Positions 6,656-42,280 of a stretch of DNA of 55,411 nucleotides are shown here, piece by piece. Positions within the stretch are counted from its first letter, which is position 1. Every line of letters begins with the position of its first letter. Position numbers and translations under genes: made by a program. The notes under the pieces are model-generated. The model saw only the letters and a list, made by a program, of their open reading frames with translations, had not been told where the DNA came from and did not search any database. The stretch comes from a virus, in the IMG/VR virus record IMGVR_UViG_3300008999_000007, positions 1-55,411 of that record. The stretch is one strand, 5' to 3'.

Positions 6656-9600
6656 ATGGCTTTAAATTTTCCTTCCACCCCAAGTGCAAACGCCGTATAT
6701 ACGTACAATGGTAGATCCTGGACGTATAACGGCAATGCCTGGGCGCTGACGACAGCTGTCCTTGATACATCGGTAATTCCTGAGAGTGGAAACTTATATT
6801 TTACAAACGCTAGAGTTGTATCAGCTCTAACCGCCGGCCAAAACATCACCCTAGATGGTAATGGTAGAATTAATGCCTCTGTATCTGGTGGAGGGGGTGG
6901 GGGCAATGTTGACTCTGTTGCAGGTGCAACAGGTGCTGTATCTAACGTTCAAATTGCAGCTGCCGTATCTTCTTCAGGTATCTTAACAACTGCTAATATT
7001 GTTGAATTAACTAATTTATATTATACCCAAGCAAGATTTGATACTGCCTTAGGTAACAAGACAACGAGTAATGTTACCGAAGGAGCAAATTTATATTTTA
7101 CAGATGCAAGAGTTTATTCTAATGTAACGTCACTTGGTTATATCACCTCAAGTGCATTATCTGGATACGCAACCAATACCCAGCTTGCCTCCTTTGCAAC
7201 TACAACCAATGTATTATTAAAGTCTAATATTACGGATTTAACAACAGCAAATGTTGTTGAACTGACCAATTTATACTTTACTAATGCACGTGTTTATTCC
7301 GCCGTTACCGGCAACTTAGCATTAAAGTCAAATGTAGCAGACCTGACGACCGCTAACGTATCTGAATTAACTAATCTGTATTACACTAATGCAAGAGTTT
7401 ATTCTGCTGTTACTGGCAACCTGGCTCTTAAATCCAATGTTGTGGATCTAACGACATCTAATGTATCTGAATTAACTAACCTGTATTACACTGATGCAAG
7501 AGTCTATTCTAATGTCACTCAAAGATTGGCTAGCCTCGATACTAATGTCATACCAAGTGTATCAGAGGTATATAGCTTAGGTTCACCATCCTTTAAGTTT
7601 AAGGATCTTTATCTATCAGGTAATACCATTTTATTGGGTGCTACTACACTGTCAAGTACAGATGACGGTCTGACTGTAAGTTCTATTAGGTCTAATGTCT
7701 GGAATGGTTTATATACCTCCAACGTTGTTGAAACAGCAGGTAACCTTTACTATACTAATGCTAGAGTTTATGCCGCGGTTACAGGAAATCTGGCTCTTAA
7801 ATCTAATGTTGTAGATCTTACGACTGCTAATGTAACAGAACTAACCAATCTTTACTATACCAACGCGCGCGTATATTCTGCGGTTACAGGCAACTTAGCT
7901 TTAAAATCAAATGTAGTAGATTTAACGACAGCAAATGTAGCTGAACTAACTAATCTGTATTATACTGATGCAAGAGTCTATTCCGCGGTTACTGGTAATT
8001 TAGCACTTAAGTCAAATATAGCAGACCTAACTACAGCCAATGTAACTGAGTTAAATAATTTATACTTTACAAATGCAAGAGTTTATTCTAATGTAACATC
8101 ACTTGGTTATATTACATCAAGTGCGCTAACTGGTTATGCGACCAATACCCAATTAACTTCTTTTGCTACTGTTTCGAACGTATTACTAAAAGCTAATATC
8201 ACTGATCTCACAACAGCTAATGTATCTGAGTTAACCAACCTATACTTTACTGATGCAAGAGTTTATTCCGCGGTTACTGGTAACCTGGCCCTTAAATCGA
8301 ATGTATCCGATCTTACAACAGCTAATGTATCTGAATTAACTAACCTCTACTTTACCAATGCAAGAGTTGTATCAGCCCTAACTGCAGGTCAAAACATCAC
8401 CCTGGATGCTAATGGCAGAATTAATTCTACCGCTACTGGTGGTGCAGGGGGTAGTGTTGACTCTGTTGCTGGTGCAACAGGTAATATATCAAACGTACAA
8501 CTAGCAGCCGGTATTACATCCTCAGGTATCCTAACTACTGCCAATGTAGCTGAACTAACTAATCTATATTATACTAATGCCCGTGTATATTCTGCAGTTA
8601 CAGGTAATTTAGCTTTAAAATCAAATATAGCAGACCTAACTACAGCCAATGTAGCTGAACTAACTAACCTATATTACACAGATGCAAGAGTATATTCTAA
8701 TGTATCAGCGCTTGGTTACATTACTACTGCTTCACTATCAGGGTATGCTACAACCTCATATGTAGGGAATGCACTTGCAAACTTAGTTGCTTCTGCTCCT
8801 GCCTCACTTGATACACTTAATGAATTAGCAACAGCATTAGGTAATGATAATAATTTCTCAACAACAGTACTTACCTATATTGGTACAAAAGCAAATACTG
8901 TCAGCTTGACAACAGCCAACGTATCTGAACTAACCAATTTATACTTTACAAATGCAAGATCTATTGCAGCACTAACTGCAGGTCAGAGCATTACTATAGA
9001 TGCTAATGGTAGAATTAATTCCTCAGCTGTTGGTGGCTCATCCTATGGTGATTCAAACGTCGCACTACTAGGTTATGCTACTAATGCCAACGTTGCATTA
9101 AAGGCTAATACCGCCGACCTTACCACAGCCAATGTTGTAGAGTTAACCAATCTGTACTATACTAACGCACGAGTATATTCGAATGTAGTGTCTATCGGCT
9201 ATATTACTTCAAGTGCATTATCTGGATATGCGACTAATAGTCAACTTGCATCTTACGCAACTAATGCGCAACTAACCTCTTACCAAACACTTGCTAATGC
9301 AACTTTAAAAGCTAACGTTACCGATCTTACAACTGCTAATGTTGTTGAGTTAACCAATTTATACTTTACAAACGCAAGAGTTTATTCTGCAGTTACAGGT
9401 AACTTGGTATTAAAAGCCAATATTGCTGACCTTACAACAGCAAATGTTACTGAAGTTACCAACTTATACTTTACAAATGCAAGAGTCTATTCTAATGTAA
9501 CGTCCCTTGGTTATATTACCTCAAGTGCACTAACTGGTTATGCAACTAATACTCAATTAACTTCTTATGTAACCTCAGCTAGTCTAACAACAGCCAATGT

Positions 9601-10684
9601 ATCTGAACTAACTAATTTATACTTTACAAACGCAAGAGTTTATTCTGCAGTTACAGGTAACTTGGCATTAAAAGCCAATATTGCTGACCTTACAACAGCA
9701 AATGTTACTGAGCTAACTAATTTATACTTTACCAACGCAAGATCAATTGCGGCCTTGACAGCAGGTCAAAGTATTACTATAGATGCTAATGGTAGGATTA
9801 ATTCCTCAGCTGTTGGCGGTGGCGGTGGTTCGACCTATGGTGATTCAAACGTAGCAGCGCTAGGGTATGCAACAAATGCTAACGTTGCATTAAAAGCCAA
9901 TATTACAGATCTCACCACGGCAAATGTTACCGAGGTTACAAACTTATATTACACACAAGCAAGATTTGATACCGCTCTAGGTAACAAGACAACGAGTAAT
10001 GTTACCGAAGGAACAAATTTATACTTTACAAACGCAAGAGTTTATTCTGCAGTTACAGGTAACTTAGCATTAAAGTCTAATGTAACAGACTTAACGACAG
10101 CAAACGTATCCGAGTTAACAAATCTGTATTATACTAATGCCAGAGTCTATTCTAATGTAACGTCGCTTGGTTATATTACAGCAAGCTCATTATCAGGCTA
10201 TGCAACTAATACACAATTAGCTTCTTTTATAACTTCAGCTAGCCTGACAACAGCGAATGTATCTGAACTAACTAATCTGTATTTTACAAACGCAAGAGTT
10301 TATTCATCCTTAACTGCAGGTGCAGGTATATCAATATCCAGTGGTACAATAAGTGCTGCACCTAGAATTGTTGCAATTACTGATGCAGCCTCGGTAACCA
10401 TTGACGGTGATACAACAGATATTGCCACTCAAGTTAATACCCAGGCTGTAGGTACACTCACTATTAATGCTGTAACCGGTACATTAAGTAATGGCCAAAA
10501 GATTATTTTTAGACTACAATCTACGAACGTCCAAACGTTTAGCTGGAATGCTGTCTTTGTAGGATCAACTGATCTGGCTCTACCAACGGTATCATCGGGT
10601 GCCAGTAAGTATGATTATGTAGGGTTCATGTACAATACGACTGCATCAAAATGGCAGTTGTTGGCTAAGAATTTTGGGTTTTAA
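6656..10684 (+). CDS. Giant repeat-rich tail fibre (1342 aa)
   Basis: The N-terminus (MALNFPSTPSANAVYTYNGRSWTYNG, two blocks) matches that of the preceding fibre, suggesting the same attachment point on the virion. About 24 copies (by eye) of a repeat with core ELTNLYFTNARVYSAVTGN follow, separated by LTTANV and ALKSNV linkers. Interspersed modules read LTAGQNITLDANGRINS and GYATNTQL. The C-terminal ~110 residues (from about APRIVAITDAASVTI) form a different beta domain ending WQLLAKNFGF, a likely tip. Length and modularity point to a long fibre or side fibre. The repeats are near-identical at DNA level and could recombine. The receptor is unknown. Confidence 0.75.
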   Translation: MALNFPSTPSANAVYTYNGRSWTYNGNAWALTTAVLDTSVIPESGNLYFTNARVVSALTAGQNITLDGNGRINASVSGGGGGGNVDSVAGATGAVSNVQIAAAVSSSGILTTANIVELTNLYYTQARFDTALGNKTTSNVTEGANLYFTDARVYSNVTSLGYITSSALSGYATNTQLASFATTTNVLLKSNITDLTTANVVELTNLYFTNARVYSAVTGNLALKSNVADLTTANVSELTNLYYTNARVYSAVTGNLALKSNVVDLTTSNVSELTNLYYTDARVYSNVTQRLASLDTNVIPSVSEVYSLGSPSFKFKDLYLSGNTILLGATTLSSTDDGLTVSSIRSNVWNGLYTSNVVETAGNLYYTNARVYAAVTGNLALKSNVVDLTTANVTELTNLYYTNARVYSAVTGNLALKSNVVDLTTANVAELTNLYYTDARVYSAVTGNLALKSNIADLTTANVTELNNLYFTNARVYSNVTSLGYITSSALTGYATNTQLTSFATVSNVLLKANITDLTTANVSELTNLYFTDARVYSAVTGNLALKSNVSDLTTANVSELTNLYFTNARVVSALTAGQNITLDANGRINSTATGGAGGSVDSVAGATGNISNVQLAAGITSSGILTTANVAELTNLYYTNARVYSAVTGNLALKSNIADLTTANVAELTNLYYTDARVYSNVSALGYITTASLSGYATTSYVGNALANLVASAPASLDTLNELATALGNDNNFSTTVLTYIGTKANTVSLTTANVSELTNLYFTNARSIAALTAGQSITIDANGRINSSAVGGSSYGDSNVALLGYATNANVALKANTADLTTANVVELTNLYYTNARVYSNVVSIGYITSSALSGYATNSQLASYATNAQLTSYQTLANATLKANVTDLTTANVVELTNLYFTNARVYSAVTGNLVLKANIADLTTANVTEVTNLYFTNARVYSNVTSLGYITSSALTGYATNTQLTSYVTSASLTTANVSELTNLYFTNARVYSAVTGNLALKANIADLTTANVTELTNLYFTNARSIAALTAGQSITIDANGRINSSAVGGGGGSTYGDSNVAALGYATNANVALKANITDLTTANVTEVTNLYYTQARFDTALGNKTTSNVTEGTNLYFTNARVYSAVTGNLALKSNVTDLTTANVSELTNLYYTNARVYSNVTSLGYITASSLSGYATNTQLASFITSASLTTANVSELTNLYFTNARVYSSLTAGAGISISSGTISAAPRIVAITDAASVTIDGDTTDIATQVNTQAVGTLTINAVTGTLSNGQKIIFRLQSTNVQTFSWNAVFVGSTDLALPTVSSGASKYDYVGFMYNTTASKWQLLAKNFGF
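6780..10315 (+). repeat. Array of in-frame fibre repeats (NLYFTNAR units)
   Basis: Roughly 24 imperfect copies encoding NLY(F/Y)T(N/D/Q)AR plus variable linkers. Related single copies occur in the genes at 3524, 3889 and 4531. Copies differ mostly at synonymous sites. The array is coding throughout and has no CRISPR-like constant spacing. Confidence 0.85.
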
Positions 10685-33882: not shown

Positions 33883-34053
33883 ATGTTCAAATTTGATCTA
33901 CATCCAGATCCCGCTTGGCATGCTCGTATCAGCTTTGTAAAAAGCGGACTTCGGGTAATTGCCGGTCTCTTCCTTATTTCCAGTAGCTTACTTGGCGCTG
34001 GTATCTTTTTAATCCTTGCTGAAATCCTTGGCGTTGCAGAGGAGCTTGTCTAA
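33883..34053 (+). CDS. Small single-pass membrane protein
   Basis: A 56-aa protein. An N-terminal amphipathic part (FKFDLHPDPAWHARISFVKS) leads into one hydrophobic segment (about residues 25-48, LRVIAGLFLISSSLLGAGIF). It starts after a good TAGGAGTATAA ribosome site and its TAA overlaps the queE ATG. Its role is unknown; being first in the modification operon it may serve membrane or host-takeover functions. Confidence 0.7.
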   Translation: MFKFDLHPDPAWHARISFVKSGLRVIAGLFLISSSLLGAGIFLILAEILGVAEELV

Positions 34054-34901
34054 TGGCTAAACTTAAAGTAGCAGAGTTGTTTTATTCTATTCAAGGAGAG
34101 GGTAGATTTATGGGAGTACCGTCTGTATTCCTACGAGTCTTCGGGTGTAACTTTACGTGCGGTGGGTTTGGTATGCCCAAGGGCGAGGAAAGTAAGGAGC
34201 GGGATTATGCAGCAGCTGAAGTTAAAAAGTATCTATCTTATAAAGATCTTCCTCTTGTCAGTACAGGCTGTGATAGCTATGCTTCTTGGGATCCTCGGTT
34301 TAAGCATCTTAGCCCTGTACTCGATACTAATAGTATTACCTATTCAATTATGGATATACTACCGCACAAGAGGTGGGAAGACGAACATCTTGTAATTACA
34401 GGTGGTGAGCCTTTGCTAGGATGGCAGCGCGCTTACCCCGATCTATTGGATCATGATAGTAATAAGAGATTAAAAGAGTTAACGTTTGAGACAAATGGTA
34501 CACAGGATCTAACCAGTGAGTTCCGTAAGTACTTAAATGATAACTGGACAAAGACCCGTAAGGATCAACTCACCTTCTCCGTATCACCTAAGCTATCAGT
34601 GTCTGGTGAAAAGAAAGAAGAGGCAATTCTTCCTGATATTGTTACTATGTATGAATGGTTTGGATATACGTATCTTAAGTTCGTAGTAGCTACTCAGGAG
34701 GATGCGGATGAGGCAGAGGAAGCTGTAAATGCATATCGTAAGAGTGGATTTAATGGGCCAGTATACCTGATGCCGCTTGGTGGGGTAGAGTCTGTCTACT
34801 CTCTTAATAATCGACGGGTTGCGGAGCTAGCAATGAAGAAGGGTTGGAGATATTCTGATCGTCTACAGGTACCGCTTTTTAAAAACGAATGGGGAACATA
34901 A
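34053..34901 (+). CDS. queE: 7-carboxy-7-deazaguanine synthase QueE
   Basis: A 282-aa radical SAM enzyme that ring-contracts carboxy-tetrahydropterin to 7-carboxy-7-deazaguanine, the third step to preQ0. ELFYSIQGEGRFMGVPSVFL (8-27) is the QueE signature, ITGGEP (115-120) binds SAM, and FETNGT (145-150) is conserved. The cluster cysteines are C32 and C36 (CNFTC), but the third, C73 in STGCDSY, lies 36 residues later instead of 2 in the standard CxxxCxxC spacing. The insertion is rich in charged residues. It overlaps the upstream small gene. Confidence 0.9.
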   Translation: MAKLKVAELFYSIQGEGRFMGVPSVFLRVFGCNFTCGGFGMPKGEESKERDYAAAEVKKYLSYKDLPLVSTGCDSYASWDPRFKHLSPVLDTNSITYSIMDILPHKRWEDEHLVITGGEPLLGWQRAYPDLLDHDSNKRLKELTFETNGTQDLTSEFRKYLNDNWTKTRKDQLTFSVSPKLSVSGEKKEEAILPDIVTMYEWFGYTYLKFVVATQEDADEAEEAVNAYRKSGFNGPVYLMPLGGVESVYSLNNRRVAELAMKKGWRYSDRLQVPLFKNEWGT

Positions 34902-34904
34902 AAA

Positions 34905-35582
34905 ATGAGTTTAACTAAAACTAAAACTGATGCCGAACTAGGCTATAAGGTTGAGGAATATCTAAAATCTAAAGGTGTTCATACACCTATCGTTATTGAT
35001 AAGCTTCTTGTAAAAGAAGATGCTAAGATCAAACGTATTGAGAAGCACTTTGGCGCTATCATGGACATCCTCGGGCTTGACCGAGAGGATGATTCATTAA
35101 TGGATACTCCAAAGAGGGTAGCTAAAATGTATGTAAATGAAATCTTCTGGGGCTTGAAACCAGAGAACTTTCCAAAGTGTACTGTCATCGATAATAAGAT
35201 GGGGTACGATGAGATGGTAATCGAGAAGGACATTACATTGATGTCTAACTGTGAGCACCACTTTGTTACTATCGACGCTAAAGCCCACATTGCTTATATT
35301 CCTAAGGATAAGGTATTAGGTCTATCGAAAATGAATCGTATTGTAGAGTACTTTGCCCGTCGCCCTCAGGTACAGGAACGTATTGCCGAGCAAATCTACC
35401 ATGCGCTCAGTTTTATTCTCGATACCGAAGATGTGGCAGTTGTAATCGAGGGAGTTCATTACTGCGTAAAATCGAGAGGGGTTGAAGATCATAACTCCTA
35501 TACCATGACTGCAAAGCTCGGTGGATGTTTTAAAAGTGAGCCCGATTGCCGTGCAGAGTTTATGTCTCTAATTAAGAATTAA
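34905..35582 (+). CDS. folE: GTP cyclohydrolase I FolE
   Basis: A 225-aa enzyme converting GTP to dihydroneopterin triphosphate, the entry step of 7-deazaguanine synthesis. MDTPKRVAKMYVNEIFWGL is the conserved N-terminal block. The zinc ligands are intact: C116 and H119 in SNCEHHF, and C187 in VHYCVKSRG. SKMNRIVEYFARRPQVQER is also typical. Length matches bacterial FolE (222 aa in E. coli). It follows queE after 3 bases. Confidence 0.96.
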   Translation: MSLTKTKTDAELGYKVEEYLKSKGVHTPIVIDKLLVKEDAKIKRIEKHFGAIMDILGLDREDDSLMDTPKRVAKMYVNEIFWGLKPENFPKCTVIDNKMGYDEMVIEKDITLMSNCEHHFVTIDAKAHIAYIPKDKVLGLSKMNRIVEYFARRPQVQERIAEQIYHALSFILDTEDVAVVIEGVHYCVKSRGVEDHNSYTMTAKLGGCFKSEPDCRAEFMSLIKN

Positions 35583-35585
35583 ATT

Positions 35586-36020
35586 ATGACCTGGTATGCA
35601 AACTCTGAAGGCCGGTATGGGGCTAGTGGAGCCAAGGGTGACCTTGGTGAAGCAATCGTACAAGATTATTGCAAGACTAATAACATATTATTTGAAGATA
35701 AGAATGATATTAACAGTCAAGTAAATCTTAAAATAGATTGTATCATTGATGGCATTCCTGTAGATGTTAAGTCAAACTACTCCAGGGGTACCCTCTGTAT
35801 AGAGCTGTATACCAAAAGAAGAGGGGCGGGGTGGTTCTATACTACTTCTGCTGAACAAATTTACGGGGTAGATGTGGATACTAAAGCGATTTACCGCTAT
35901 AATATAGAGGAAATGCTAGCTTACATAATTGCGAATAAAACCCGCGCAAAGAGAACCGAGAAGGGTGATGTTCTTATGTGGGTACCTGTTACAACCGATA
36001 TTATTGAGAAACTCCAATGA
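35586..36020 (+). CDS. PD-(D/E)xK nuclease-like protein
   Basis: A 144-aa protein. GDLGEAIVQDYC with E22, KIDCIIDG with D51, and PVDVKS with D60 and K62 form the E...D...DxK pattern of the restriction-endonuclease-like fold. Similar small proteins occur in marine T4-like phages. In this operon it may cleave unmodified DNA or take part in recombination; neither is shown. It overlaps the DpdA-like gene by 4 bases, so the two are co-translated. Confidence 0.6.
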   Translation: MTWYANSEGRYGASGAKGDLGEAIVQDYCKTNNILFEDKNDINSQVNLKIDCIIDGIPVDVKSNYSRGTLCIELYTKRRGAGWFYTTSAEQIYGVDVDTKAIYRYNIEEMLAYIIANKTRAKRTEKGDVLMWVPVTTDIIEKLQ

Positions 36021-36898
36021 AAATTAGCCATGAATCCCCGCTTTCTCTTCTTCGTACTTCTCGTACTTACAACGACTATGATTACGCTCTTGTCCACTTG
36101 TTCGACACTGAACCCGCGTACTACAAATTCTTTAAAGAGTCTTTAGCAATAGGTAGAAAGGTTTTGCTTGACAATTCTATCTTTGAACTAGGTACAGCAT
36201 TTGATCCAGAAAAATATGCGCATTATATTAGAACTCTTAAACCGACAGAGTATATTATTCCTGACGTGCTTGAGAATACTATTGGTACAATGGATAGTGC
36301 TCTTGACTTTGTAGAAAAGTATCCCGATCTACCAGGAAAGAGGATAGGAGTTGTTCAGGGTAAATCATACTCAGATCTTGTTGAGTGTTATGAATATATG
36401 GATAATATTATCGATGTAGATAAGATCGCTATATCATTTGACTACTCTTATTATCTCCAGCGTTGCCCTCATCCTAATAAATGGATGGGCTACACATTGG
36501 GGCGAGCACAAACTTTAACTAGGTTATTAAAAGATGGCGTTATTAATAAAGACAAGCCGCATCACCTCCTGGGTTGCGCGCTCCCGATTGAGTTTATGTT
36601 CTACCGCGAGGGGTTTGACTGGATTGATTCGATCGATACTTCCAGCCCTGTGGTTCACGGGCTTCTCAATATTGCTTATCAGCCTGGCGGTCTGGTTAAT
36701 AAACAATCAATCAAACTCGTCGATCTTCTTAACTCCGTACCCGATGCTAACCAGATGAGAATGATTAAGCACAATGTAATGATGTTCAGTACATTTGTAA
36801 GGGGAGAGCCTAAGTCACAAAAAAGCCATACAGATAGTAGATACGATGTAGGTCCATGGACTACTGATCAAGAAAAATATCAGCCCGCAGAAGCATGA
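36017..36898 (+). CDS. dpdA: DpdA-like DNA guanine transglycosylase
   Basis: A 293-aa TIM-barrel protein of the tRNA-guanine transglycosylase superfamily. LLDNSIFELG (50-59) aligns by pattern with the DSGGFQ region of TGT (D52 as general base). GVVQGKSYSD (111-120) matches the VQG substrate loop, PHHLLGCALPIEF matches the LMGVG strand, and DSIDTSSP with D207 matches the nucleophile region. The C-terminal zinc site of tRNA enzymes is absent. Such phage proteins (DpdA) swap guanine in DNA for preQ0- or preQ1-type bases. The neighbouring folE, queE, queF, queC and queD genes make this the likely role. Confidence 0.85.
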   Translation: MKISHESPLSLLRTSRTYNDYDYALVHLFDTEPAYYKFFKESLAIGRKVLLDNSIFELGTAFDPEKYAHYIRTLKPTEYIIPDVLENTIGTMDSALDFVEKYPDLPGKRIGVVQGKSYSDLVECYEYMDNIIDVDKIAISFDYSYYLQRCPHPNKWMGYTLGRAQTLTRLLKDGVINKDKPHHLLGCALPIEFMFYREGFDWIDSIDTSSPVVHGLLNIAYQPGGLVNKQSIKLVDLLNSVPDANQMRMIKHNVMMFSTFVRGEPKSQKSHTDSRYDVGPWTTDQEKYQPAEA

Positions 36899-36899
36899 T

Positions 36900-37439
36900 A
36901 TGTGGGTTGTATTTTTTAGTCAGACAGGGTCAGAGATAGTAGAGTTGTGTGAAGCACTAGGTCGTAAGCCTGATCTCATTGTTACAAATAATTTTGAGAG
37001 TAAAATTAAGTTCAACCCTGGTGTTCGTAATTTAAGAGTACCCATCATGTCTGCCAGTCACGATGGGTTAATGAATTATTTTAAAAATCAATCTATATAT
37101 AATCCTGCTAAGACTATTATCACCCTACACGGTTACCTACGGATTATATCACCTGACATATGTGACAAGTATGAAATATACAACGGGCACCCTGCTGCCA
37201 TTAATCTATACCCTGAATTAAGAGGAAAGGACCCTCAAGAAAAGGTGTGGCAAAATATGAGAAATTATCCTATAATAGGCAGTGTTGTGCATAGATGTAC
37301 AGCTGTACTTGATGCAGGTGAGATCGCTGGGGTAGTTAATGTATTTAATGAATGTACGTCAGTGTATGCACTATATCAAAAATTAAAAGATACATCGCTT
37401 GAATCATGGGTAACGTTTATGAGAGGTAAGTCGGTATGA
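36900..37439 (+). CDS. PurN-like formyltransferase, DpdN candidate
   Basis: A 179-aa formyltransferase-fold protein. The glycine loop FSQTGSEI (6-13) resembles SGNGSNL of PurN. The catalytic triad is visible: N95 and H97 in NGHPAAIN, and D138 in AVLDAGEI. It is shorter than PurN (212 aa in E. coli) and lies 2 bases after the DpdA-like gene. A phage formyltransferase (DpdN) has been predicted to make 7-(formylamino)methyl-7-deazaguanine from preQ1 in DNA; the genomic context favours that role. A purine-synthesis PurN, known as an auxiliary gene in cyanophages, is the alternative. Confidence 0.7.
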   Translation: MWVVFFSQTGSEIVELCEALGRKPDLIVTNNFESKIKFNPGVRNLRVPIMSASHDGLMNYFKNQSIYNPAKTIITLHGYLRIISPDICDKYEIYNGHPAAINLYPELRGKDPQEKVWQNMRNYPIIGSVVHRCTAVLDAGEIAGVVNVFNECTSVYALYQKLKDTSLESWVTFMRGKSV

Positions 37440-37969
37440 AAATTGGATTGTCAGGTGCTCAATCTGTAGGCAAGACAACGTTGTTGAATGCTTTAAGATC
37501 TGAGAGAGGTCTGTTGGGATTTACCGTATGTGATGAGGTAACTAGAAGGGTTAAGGGATACGGTCTTCCTATTAATGAGGAGGGTACCGATATTACGCAG
37601 ATGCTAATTATGCAGGAGCATATTATAAATGTATTCATGCATGATAATATTATTACCGATAGGACTGCGTTGGATGGATTAGTATATACATCGTACTTGC
37701 ATCGTAAGAATAAGGTTTCGCTTGAAACGTTAATCAAGTCGCGTGCTATCTTTAATAAAGTATGGCCAATGTATAACCATGTATTTTATATTGAACCGGA
37801 GTTTGATTTAGTTGACGACGGGATACGAAGTGTTAATAAGCAGTTTAGAGATGAAATTGCAGATCTATTTGAAATGGTTATTGAGAAAGAGAAGCTATCT
37901 GTAACGCGTATTAAGGGTTCGGTAAGAGATAGGGTAACAACGATTATTGAAATATTGGAAGGTAGATAA
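37436..37969 (+). CDS. P-loop nucleotide kinase-like ATPase
   Basis: A 177-aa P-loop protein. Walker A is GAQSVGKTT (7-15), followed by FTVCDEVTRRV and the conserved block ITDRTALDGLVYTSYLHRKN. The pattern fits the NadR/Ttd14-like AAA kinase family, which phosphorylates nucleosides or nicotinamide riboside. It sits between the formyltransferase and QueF and overlaps the first by 4 bases. Whether it serves deazaguanine metabolism, NAD salvage (anti-Thoeris or Sir2-like defence) or deoxynucleotides is unknown. Confidence 0.7.
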   Translation: MKIGLSGAQSVGKTTLLNALRSERGLLGFTVCDEVTRRVKGYGLPINEEGTDITQMLIMQEHIINVFMHDNIITDRTALDGLVYTSYLHRKNKVSLETLIKSRAIFNKVWPMYNHVFYIEPEFDLVDDGIRSVNKQFRDEIADLFEMVIEKEKLSVTRIKGSVRDRVTTIIEILEGR

Positions 37970-38889
37970 TGAGTAATCAAGATGAACTGAATAAAATTGT
38001 AGGCGTTCACTTAGGCAAAGCTGGTGATGGATCAGCAGTTAAACCGTATATTACCCCTGATGCAGTAGATAAGACATTACTGGTAGCTGTTCCGCGCTAC
38101 CTAAATCGTACCGCTTATGATATTCAAGAGGGCGCTCTTCCCTTCCTAGGTATGGATGCCTGGAACGCATACGAGTTTTCTACTCTTACGAAGAGTGGTT
38201 TCCCTGTATCTGGTTGGCTTAAGTTTACCTATAATGCAAGTAGCCCTAATATCGTTGAATCAAAATCTGTAAAGCTCTATCTTAACTCATATAATATGGC
38301 AAGGATCATTAGATCACATAATGAGTTGTGGATGATTGAGGATCAAATTAAAGCACATCTAAGCGAGACTGTAGGTGATGATGTTCAGGTCTTTTTGCGT
38401 ATCGGTGATATTGATACTGTTAGACCTATGAATGGTGACTTCGTATCATTAGAGTCATATTGTAATGTTTCAAAGATGAATTTTGATCGTTATAATGAGA
38501 GCGCAGATATTTTAGAAGTTGTACCAAGTATTGGCCGCTATGAGAGATGGAGATCATACTCCCTGCGATCAAATTGCCGGGTGACTAATCAGCCTGACTG
38601 GGGCGATGTGTATGTTCATATTAAAGGTGAAACATCTGTTACCCCAGAGTCCTTACTCCAATATATTGTATCAATGAGAAAAGAGAATCACTTCCATGAA
38701 GAAATTGCTGAATGCATTTATAAAAGATTGTTTGACCTTCTTAACCCTGAGGAGTTATTGGTTACCTGCTTATATACTCGTAGAGGGGGTATTGATATTA
38801 ATCCTACTCGTGTTTCCAGTAGCCTTCTTTACAGCCTAGCTCCTGTTATTGATACATTTAATTTCTGTACTAAGACTGCAAGACAATGA
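37969..38889 (+). CDS. queF: 7-cyano-7-deazaguanine reductase QueF
   Basis: A 306-aa enzyme of the long, two-domain (E. coli-type) QueF class, reducing the preQ0 nitrile to preQ1 with NADPH. DAWNAYEFSTLTKSGFPVSG (63-82) and ESKSVKLYLNSYNM (97-110) are the QueF NADPH-binding signatures. SNCRVTNQPDWG (201-212) carries the nucleophile C203 and D210. HFHEE near 241-245 and YTRRGGIDINP close to the C-terminus complete the active site. All key residues appear intact. Its presence implies that preQ1, not only preQ0, is the intended product. Confidence 0.95.
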   Translation: MSNQDELNKIVGVHLGKAGDGSAVKPYITPDAVDKTLLVAVPRYLNRTAYDIQEGALPFLGMDAWNAYEFSTLTKSGFPVSGWLKFTYNASSPNIVESKSVKLYLNSYNMARIIRSHNELWMIEDQIKAHLSETVGDDVQVFLRIGDIDTVRPMNGDFVSLESYCNVSKMNFDRYNESADILEVVPSIGRYERWRSYSLRSNCRVTNQPDWGDVYVHIKGETSVTPESLLQYIVSMRKENHFHEEIAECIYKRLFDLLNPEELLVTCLYTRRGGIDINPTRVSSSLLYSLAPVIDTFNFCTKTARQ

Positions 38890-39104
38890 AAATAACTGGA
38901 CCTGATCCTAACGTCAACGAAATTTGTAATGAATTTGAGTCAAGAGCTTGTCATGGGTTTGATAAGTATGGTGTAACGACTGAGCGCACCGATTTAGATT
39001 TAATGCAATGGATTCAGCATCTCAAAGAAGAGTTAATGGATGCTGTTGTATACATCCATCGTATTCAAAAAGAATTGAAAGAGAAACAAGATGACTTCAA
39101 ATGA
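38886..39104 (+). CDS. Small MazG-like helical protein
   Basis: A 72-aa protein. SRACHGFDKYGVTTERTDLD followed by WIQHLKEELMDAVVYIHRIQ is a conserved small phage family with EExxD-type acidic helix spacing (residues about 49-56), as in MazG-like nucleotide pyrophosphohydrolases. It overlaps both queF and queC. It may trim a nucleotide pool, but the single domain is too short to be sure of catalysis. Confidence 0.6.
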   Translation: MKITGPDPNVNEICNEFESRACHGFDKYGVTTERTDLDLMQWIQHLKEELMDAVVYIHRIQKELKEKQDDFK

Positions 39105-39852
39105 AGCGCTGGCATTACTGCCCGATGTACCAGGTTGTGTAGTTATTTTATCTGGTGGTATGGATAGTACCATTGCAATGAGATTGGCTGTACAGAAGTA
39201 TGGTAAAGAAAACGTTTCAGCTCTAACTTTCTATTACGGTCAGAAGCAAAAGCGTGAAATTGACATGGCTAGAATGTCTACCCAGATACTTGGTGTTAAG
39301 CATAGAGTTGTTGATGCATCGTTCCTTGGTGACATCAGTAAAGGCTTTTCAGCTAACGTCGATACCGACATGGCTATGCCTACGATTAAAGACGTGCTTG
39401 GTGATCCTCGTCCTAAGACATATGTACCTAATCGCAATATGATCTTGATGTCGATTGCAGCAGCGTTTGCAGAGACACAAAACGTTGATACTGTTGTATG
39501 TGGACTACAGGTACACGATGAGTACGGCTACCATGATACTACACAGCGTTGGGTTGATAAGGTAAATGACTTGCTATCTGAAAATCGTATTATTAAGATT
39601 AAGCTTACTGCCCCCTTCAGTCAACTATCTAAGTACGATGAGCTACAGATCTTGCAAGAACTTGATGGTAACTTAGTGCTTACCTCATTTACTATGACCT
39701 GTTACAATCCCGACGCACAACATCGATCTTGCGGTGAATGTCCTAGCTGTTCCGAACGTATTGCTAATTTTGCTAAGATAGGTTATAATGATCCAGTTGA
39801 GTATTCTAAAGTAATCCCCTGGCAGGACTTAATCGAAAGAATGAAGGTGTAA
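39091..39852 (+). CDS. queC: 7-cyano-7-deazaguanine synthase QueC
   Basis: A 253-aa ATP-dependent enzyme that converts 7-carboxy-7-deazaguanine to preQ0. The PP-loop SGGMDS is at 21-26. FYYGQKQKREI, YVPNRNMILMS and the zinc-type cysteine group CYNPDAQHRSCGECPSCSER near the C-terminus are typical. Length is close to E. coli QueC (231 aa). It ends 1 base before a class II amidotransferase gene, a pairing that recalls Gat-QueC fusions. Confidence 0.95.
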   Translation: MTSNEALALLPDVPGCVVILSGGMDSTIAMRLAVQKYGKENVSALTFYYGQKQKREIDMARMSTQILGVKHRVVDASFLGDISKGFSANVDTDMAMPTIKDVLGDPRPKTYVPNRNMILMSIAAAFAETQNVDTVVCGLQVHDEYGYHDTTQRWVDKVNDLLSENRIIKIKLTAPFSQLSKYDELQILQELDGNLVLTSFTMTCYNPDAQHRSCGECPSCSERIANFAKIGYNDPVEYSKVIPWQDLIERMKV

Positions 39853-39853
39853 C

Positions 39854-40471
39854 ATGTGCGCTATTACTGCATCCTTTAATAAGGATAAGCTGTTAGAATT
39901 ATATCGTCTGAATGCATACCGGGGAGAGTTAAGTTACTCTCTTTCCGCTTTTGAGCATACCCCTGCAGGGGTAAAGCTTAATATTCTAATGCAAGATGAG
40001 GGTAAGCTTCCAGAGGTGCTGCTAACGGAAATGAATCATCTTGGTAATGCATTCTATATCGCTCACTCCCAAGCCCCTACAACCGAGTCAAAGAATATTC
40101 ACCCATCAGTATTTGGTGATTGCTTCTTGTGGCATAACGGTATTATTAAACAGAAGAACATTACAGCGGGCACATGGGATACACAATGGCTACAGGAGCA
40201 AATTATAAACTATGGATGGAGTTCATTGTCCAGAGTAGATGGTACTTTTGCATGTATCATGTATAATAGTGGTGAGCTATTTGTTTTTAGAAATGAAATA
40301 TCACCTATGTTTTATGATGAGAATTTCAACTTCTCATCTACTAAATTTGACGGGGCAGAGTCTCTTGCCCCTAATAAGGTTTTTAAATTAAATTTAGCCT
40401 TTAAGCAATTAACCCCTATTGCCTATTTTCAGACAATGGAGAATCCATATTATATACCGGAGAATGCATGA
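39854..40471 (+). CDS. Stand-alone class II glutamine amidotransferase
   Basis: A 205-aa Ntn-hydrolase glutaminase. The start MCAITASF puts the nucleophile Cys at residue 2 after Met removal. HSQAPT (71-76) stands where HxRxxT is usual, so the glutamine-binding Arg is Gln here. HNG (94-96) and VDGTFA (128-133) are conserved. It immediately follows QueC, and Gat-QueC fusions make archaeosine-type bases in some phages and archaea. It could supply ammonia to QueC or amidate preQ0. The Arg change leaves its activity open. Confidence 0.7.
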   Translation: MCAITASFNKDKLLELYRLNAYRGELSYSLSAFEHTPAGVKLNILMQDEGKLPEVLLTEMNHLGNAFYIAHSQAPTTESKNIHPSVFGDCFLWHNGIIKQKNITAGTWDTQWLQEQIINYGWSSLSRVDGTFACIMYNSGELFVFRNEISPMFYDENFNFSSTKFDGAESLAPNKVFKLNLAFKQLTPIAYFQTMENPYYIPENA

Positions 40472-40998: not shown

Positions 40999-41072
40999 TA
41001 CAATGCGGTCTTCGGCGTCATCCCGCTCTATAAACTCTGCTGTCTATGCTATTTAACATAGGAGAAACAAGC

Positions 41073-41576
41073 ATGTCTTTACAACCAGTAGTTTACAAGT
41101 ATACCAGTACCAAAGAGTATCACGATTCATTTCCCTGCGCATACCGTCAATGGAGAGCCGATAGTCATTGTAATTTAATTCATGGCTATTCATTCAGTAT
41201 GAAGTTTTACTTTGGTACCGATAACTTAGATGTTCGCAATTGGGCGGCTGATTACGGGGGGCTAAAGGATTTAAAGCAAGTGTTAGAAAGTCAATTTGAT
41301 CATACGCTATTAGTAGCCGAAGATGATCCTGAACTAGAAACATATAAATTGCTACAAGCAAAAAACATGGCTAAACTAACTATCCTTCCGAAACTTGGAT
41401 GTGAAGGTTTAGCAGATCAATTATATAATTTTGTTAACGGGGTATATATACCTGATTATTGGGGCCCCGGTGAAGCCGGCCGGCTTTGGTGCTATAGAGT
41501 TGAGGTGAGAGAGACTCAGTCTAATATGGCATTCAGAGAAGGTCATCGTGAGTGGGATGAAGATTTATTTAACTAG
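41073..41576 (+). CDS. queD: 6-carboxytetrahydropterin synthase QueD-like
   Basis: A 167-aa protein of the QueD/PTPS family, making carboxy-tetrahydropterin from the FolE product. The start at 41073 has an AGGAG ribosome site 8 bases upstream; an ATG 27 bases earlier lacks one. SHCNLIHGYSFSMKF carries the catalytic Cys33 and metal-binding His37, FDHTLL holds the catalytic His77, and VEVRET near the end holds the Glu. The usual HGH is HGY here and the usual N-terminal FxAAH reads FPCAYRQW. This fits a phage subfamily with a changed zinc site. Confidence 0.85.
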   Translation: MSLQPVVYKYTSTKEYHDSFPCAYRQWRADSHCNLIHGYSFSMKFYFGTDNLDVRNWAADYGGLKDLKQVLESQFDHTLLVAEDDPELETYKLLQAKNMAKLTILPKLGCEGLADQLYNFVNGVYIPDYWGPGEAGRLWCYRVEVRETQSNMAFREGHREWDEDLFN

Positions 41577-41584
41577 GAAACATT

Positions 41585-42280
41585 ATGACAACAGCATTAC
41601 ATGATCGTTACATCGAGAGACCGTTAATGTCAATCGATAATACTACTCTATATTGGATTATAGGGCTTGCAGCTACTTTAATTATGGCCATGACGATGGC
41701 TGACTTTGCTGCAGCAAAGTTTTTAGACTTTGGCTGGGTAGTTACCCCTGCTGGGGCTCTCTTATTTGCTGTGGTGTTTGTGGTTCGGGATATGTTGCAT
41801 AAGCTTGCCGGAGCTGCTGTGGTACAGCGAACTATTCTAATAGGGGTTGGATTAAATCTTTTTGTTGCAGCATTTATGTATGCTATGACTTTTATTCCTG
41901 CTCCAGAATTTAGACCCAGTGTTCATTTTGATGCTGTGTTTAAGATGAGCCTGGGTATTGTAATTGGATCAGAGATTGCCACCCTAGCATCACAATGGGT
42001 TAATACTTGGATATATCAAAGGTTATGGGATCGGGACTGGGGTAGTTGGTCTAGAACCTTTGTCAGCAACTTAATGAGTCTTCCAGTAGATGCTATTATA
42101 TTCGTTCTGTTTGCTTTTGTTTTTATTCCTCCTCTACTAGGCGGAGATCCTATGGATATTAATAAAGCTATTGCAAGAATTGTATCAGGTTCTACGTTAT
42201 TTAAATTAGCTGTAATCCTAGCTCTTACCCCTCTGGTAAGTCTGGCTCCTTGGAGAGAAGAAGCAAGAGAACTAAAGTAA
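41585..42280 (+). CDS. yhhQ: YhhQ-type queuosine-precursor transporter
   Basis: A 231-aa integral membrane protein with about six hydrophobic segments (roughly 22-43, 48-68, 80-102, 120-142, 160-185, 205-222). AKFLDFGWVVTPAGALLFAV and VFVVRDMLHKLAG are characteristic of the YhhQ/VUT family, which imports preQ0 and preQ1. WVNTWIYQRLW and SNLMSLPVDAIIFVLFAF are also family features. It directly follows queD. Together with the biosynthetic genes it suggests that the phage both makes and scavenges the base. Confidence 0.85.
   Translation: MTTALHDRYIERPLMSIDNTTLYWIIGLAATLIMAMTMADFAAAKFLDFGWVVTPAGALLFAVVFVVRDMLHKLAGAAVVQRTILIGVGLNLFVAAFMYAMTFIPAPEFRPSVHFDAVFKMSLGIVIGSEIATLASQWVNTWIYQRLWDRDWGSWSRTFVSNLMSLPVDAIIFVLFAFVFIPPLLGGDPMDINKAIARIVSGSTLFKLAVILALTPLVSLAPWREEARELK

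Follow-up and report, generated by a model that had tools for sequence, protein, structure and literature searches.

A 7-deazaguanine cassette in a T4-type virus record

The window analysed here is the 55.4-kb IMG/VR virus record IMGVR_UViG_3300008999_000007 at its full length (positions 1-55,411), which carries T4-type structural genes for terminase, sheath, tube, portal, scaffold and major head protein. Within it we found a cassette, on the + strand throughout, in which QueE, FolE, a 144-aa ORF, DpdA, a PurN-like gene, a kinase and QueF follow one another and which continues after QueF with a MazG-like ORF (a label from our own reading of the sequence), QueC, Gat, a dCTP-deaminase-like ORF, QueD and YhhQ. 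The main features are:

34053-34901, + strand: QueE (7-carboxy-7-deazaguanine synthase); PHROG 2076, E=1.5e-52, with QueE NCBIfam matches under cut-off
34905-35582, + strand: FolE, GTP cyclohydrolase I; Pfam GTP_cyclohydroI, E=3.3e-60
35586-36020, + strand: 144-aa ORF between FolE and DpdA; family match unconvincing
36017-36898, + strand: DpdA, DNA guanine transglycosylase of the immuto / Campylobacter CP220 type ("DpdA3" here); tblastn and alignment
36900-37439, + strand: PurN-like formyltransferase, DpdN candidate; Pfam, NCBIfam, alignment, tree, AlphaFold model and linkage
37436-37969, + strand: P-loop nucleoside/nucleotide kinase-like protein, likely an uncharacterised DpdA3 partner
37969-38889, + strand: QueF, two-domain NADPH-dependent preQ0 reductase (yielding preQ1); Pfam QueF_N and QueF over cut-off
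39091-39852, + strand: QueC (preQ0 synthase); TIGR00364, 165 bits, over the cut-off of 150
39854-40471, + strand: stand-alone class II glutamine amidotransferase-like protein (Gat) with Cys2; PHROG 12378, E=2.8e-44, and weak GATase_7
41046-41576, + strand: QueD (6-carboxytetrahydropterin synthase); Pfam PTPS, E=4.2e-14, and PHROG 2389
41585-42280, + strand: YhhQ-type queuosine precursor transporter; TIGR00697, 67.9 bits, over the cut-off of 51

By tblastn, the window DpdA is 52% identical to the DpdA of Flavobacterium phage immuto and 42-43% identical to the Campylobacter CP220-group protein, two proteins that we take to be of the published DpdA3 type. QueF scores 219.9 bits against TIGR03138, under that model's cut-off of 293, and is 47% identical to immuto QueF; direct reading of its sequence locates the motifs SNC...TNQPDWG and VESKSVKLYLNS, with the catalytic Cys/Asp and the NADPH motif present. 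The 144-aa ORF is conserved in many related cassettes, and the phage-encoded YhhQ-type transporter closes the cassette. The PurN-like gene had been placed 2 bases from dpdA, a distance that we correct to a single base (the dpdA stop codon occupies 36896-36898), and queF, expected a few hundred bases off, lies 529 bases away with the kinase gene, which overlaps the PurN-like gene by 4 bp, in between. As the original prediction held, the gene set starts from GTP and is complete, with FolE, QueD, QueE, QueC, QueF and DpdA all in the window; judged by sequence, these genes would make up the full route from GTP to preQ1 in DNA as described in PMC6884629. Three further IMG/VR contigs, each assembled separately from the window, carry an identical cassette with the same gene order and a 100% identical PurN-like protein, which excludes chance and assembly artefact; one of these contigs measures 159.7 kb, and no PurM/PurL-type genes were found along it.

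The PurN-like protein shares the PurN fold and triad but lies outside PurN

The ORF at 36900-37439 begins with ATG and encodes a 179-aa protein with a formyltransferase fold. Direct hmmscan gives a match to Pfam Formyl_trans_N (E=2.8e-5, slightly under the curated cut-off), so the empty result of an initial PF00551 search of the window's record is explained by the limited sensitivity of that search. An AlphaFold model of the protein (pLDDT 93.8) has PurN as its nearest solved structures (TM about 0.8, 17-19% identity), and matches in a BFVD fold search were limited to distant giant-virus formyltransferases. The intact triad that had been claimed is indeed there: N95, H97 and D138 align in register with N106, H108 and D144 of E. 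coli PurN, which PMC4786211 identifies as the catalytic triad (for the His and Asp, PMC3261824 does so too). All three residues are invariant in 46 of 46 non-redundant relatives, a set that includes the window protein and does not count E. coli PurN, and across 41 family sequences 21 residues are invariant and the frames are intact.

Despite sharing its fold and Asn-His-Asp triad with PurN, the window protein scores just 28.0 bits against the PurN model TIGR00639, far under the cut-off of 150.1, and thus falls outside the curated PurN family. The position of PurN Asn13 is Glu in 46 of 46 relatives, and that of Glu173 is Ser or Ala, with Ser in the window protein; in PurN, we take N13 to bind the GAR phosphate and E173 to contact the ribose. 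Both the G-[ST]-N GAR-phosphate motif and HPS-L-L-P are absent from all 46 relatives and present in 10 of 11 PurN sequences. Retention of the triad without SLLP and the N-terminal substrate site has likewise been described for secondary-metabolism formyltransferases (PMC4786211). In a tree with bacterial PurN, cyanophage PurN, PurU, Fmt and ArnA, all 46 relatives, including the window protein and immuto gp204, form one clade across a branch with 100/100 support. Phylogeny had been put forward as a check on the original prediction, with placement among cyanophage PurN as the sequence half of what would count against it; the tree does not give that placement and sets this clade apart from all PurN, cyanophage PurN included. 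The cyanophage enzymes (PHROG 9240; P-SSM2, P-SSM7, S-SKS1) are likewise phage-borne and share the fold, but they cluster with PurN and retain the GAR-binding residues, and no deazaguanine (dpd/que) genes were found within 6 kb of cyanophage purN. Based on the tree and the signature, we reject a cyanophage PurN origin.

Linkage to DpdA and QueF across viral loci

We found relatives of the PurN-like protein on at least 565 IMG/VR stretches. DpdA lies directly upstream of the gene in 133 of 150 relatives, and wherever at least 3 kb of sequence is available on each side (92 of these 150 relatives), DpdA and QueF are both on the locus, in 92 of 92 cases; the 92 represent 56 distinct proteins by C-terminal sequence and, because many of the loci are related by descent, are not 92 independent events. 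When loci were instead selected by DpdA, 63 carried QueF without a DpdN candidate and seven carried both. The sole locus in this set with a DpdN candidate and no QueF (L172) sits on a contig that ends before the queF position, and among the other QueF-less loci, none of the seven that are untruncated has a DpdN candidate. The converse linkage fails, as DpdA3-kinase-QueF cassettes often lack a DpdN candidate. Joint presence of DpdN and QueF needs seven changes on the DpdA tree, and this patchy distribution is as expected for an optional preQ1 tailoring step.

The association is kept, in a cluster that is still tight, at a locus with another gene order and a divergent DpdA (L048); there, positions 7035-10140 read FolE, QueF, DpdN, a second kinase, the divergent DpdA (28%) and QueC, and this DpdA possibly belongs to another DpdA subfamily. 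At the search sensitivity used, 84,980 prokaryote genomes contained one relative, on a phage-like contig. This contig, assigned to a Clostridiales MAG (L179, positions 786-2196), pairs DpdA with a divergent DpdN; no QueF was seen on this stretch, which has just 0.8 kb upstream of dpdA.

Relatives in isolate phages come from four records, all of Flavobacterium phage immuto, and are 41% identical to the window protein. The immuto gene order of DpdA, a short ORF, the PurN-like gene, kinase and QueF is nearly that of the window, and its copy is annotated as a phosphoribosylglycinamide formyltransferase; immuto differs in that its QueC is about 16 kb away, whereas in the window phage QueC and Gat belong to the cassette and YhhQ closes it. 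Cui et al. 2023 (NAR 51:9214; in the reference list of PMC12783734) reportedly included immuto among the phages studied and named DpdN as a predicted dPreQ1 formyltransferase that yields 7-(formylamino)methyl-7-deazaguanine, a name that is said to assume modification in DNA. The window gene resembles this predicted DpdN in its predicted reaction and in its setting with DpdA and QueF. The cassette of Campylobacter CP220-type phages, which we take to be the reported dADG phages, has a DpdA of the same subfamily with a related kinase adjoining it, but both DpdN and QueF are absent nearby.

The kinase itself (37436-37969) has a nucleoside/nucleotide kinase fold with NadR and deoxynucleoside kinase relatives, and it neighbours DpdA3 in 78 of the 79 viral loci that were selected by DpdA, with or without a DpdN candidate, and also in CP220. 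Because it accompanies DpdA3 regardless of DpdN, we reject a part for it in formylation; its sequence context makes it likely to be an uncharacterised partner of DpdA3. Gat (39854-40471), which is next to QueC, is stand-alone here, is fused in phage 9g and is also found in many T4-like relatives. It could feed QueC with ammonia or make an amide, and from its position beside QueC it could divert flux to an amide (ADG) or archaeosine; a stand-alone Gat may point to a mixture of bases.

Proposed function of the DpdN candidate

Together, the strict linkage to DpdA and QueF (92 of 92 loci), the intact triad and the replaced GAR-binding signature support a preQ1-directed formyltransferase, as originally predicted. 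We consider it probable that the gene at 36900-37439 is DpdN, a phage 10-formyltetrahydrofolate-dependent formyltransferase that gives rise to 7-(formylamino)methyl-7-deazaguanine in DNA. In the proposed pathway, FolE, QueD, QueE and QueC would convert GTP to preQ0, QueF would reduce preQ0 to preQ1 and DpdA would exchange guanine in phage DNA for the 7-deazaguanine base. With its Asn-His-Asp centre, which belongs to the PurN fold, the DpdN candidate would formylate the primary amine on the side chain of preQ1, taking the formyl group from 10-formyl-THF, and the product would be 7-(formylamino)methyl-7-deazaguanine in DNA. Formylation might precede insertion by DpdA, acting on free preQ1, or follow it, acting on dPreQ1 in DNA, and the direct adjacency of the gene to DpdA is compatible with either order. 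Our observations are of the fold, the triad, the separate clade, the exchanged GAR-binding residues and the linkage; from these we infer the substrate, formyl donor, product and timing, although linkage is in itself no proof of substrate. The possible diversion of flux by Gat and the absence of QueF from the stretch seen of L179 count against this reading.

Given its fold and triad, and given that the best Pfam, PHROG and NCBIfam names as well as the immuto annotation all point to PurN or a formyltransferase, the protein could be imagined as a phage PurN that boosts de novo purine synthesis in the host, as is thought for cyanophage purN. We regard this as highly improbable in view of the 28-bit score against a cut-off of 150, the position outside all PurN in the tree and the replaced GAR-binding signature; moreover, cyanophage purN loci are without dpd/que genes, whereas the PurN-like gene has DpdA and QueF in every locus with room for them.

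A PurN-fold transferase of the 7-deazaguanine pathway might also act on another amine or transfer a group other than formyl, for example on an intermediate besides preQ1. Its pocket residues do differ from those of the PurN proteins compared, and the Gat and kinase of the cassette could create other intermediates, but the invariant N/H/D triad is typical of 10-formyl-THF transfer, and no locus with 3 kb on each flank lacks QueF, whose product is the sole primary alkyl amine that the known pathway contains. We judge this reading unlikely. Still less credible, and on a par with the purine-synthesis reading, is the idea of a relic, or of a tRNA-directed enzyme with no effect on phage DNA: the frames are intact and 21 residues are invariant across 41 sequences, and the gene adjoins the DNA-inserting DpdA, not known tRNA enzymes.

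With formylation of preQ1 as the preferred reading, the DpdN candidate gains a family with hundreds of viral members, which shows a consistent dependence on QueF and is separated from PurN by a signature (typically Q-T-G-S-E near the start and [YF]NGHPG, without SLLP). Annotations of phosphoribosylglycinamide formyltransferase beside dpdA in phages therefore deserve reconsideration, and because the complete cassette lies in one window, the reaction is directly testable in E. coli. More tentatively, and with considerable doubt, DpdA3, DpdN, the dedicated P-loop kinase and QueF might form a widespread viral module that, in T4-like phages of fresh and marine waters, would substitute 7-(formylamino)methyl-7-deazaguanine for the majority or even the whole of the guanines, with the kinase as a hitherto unrecognised partner in base exchange of the DpdA3 type.
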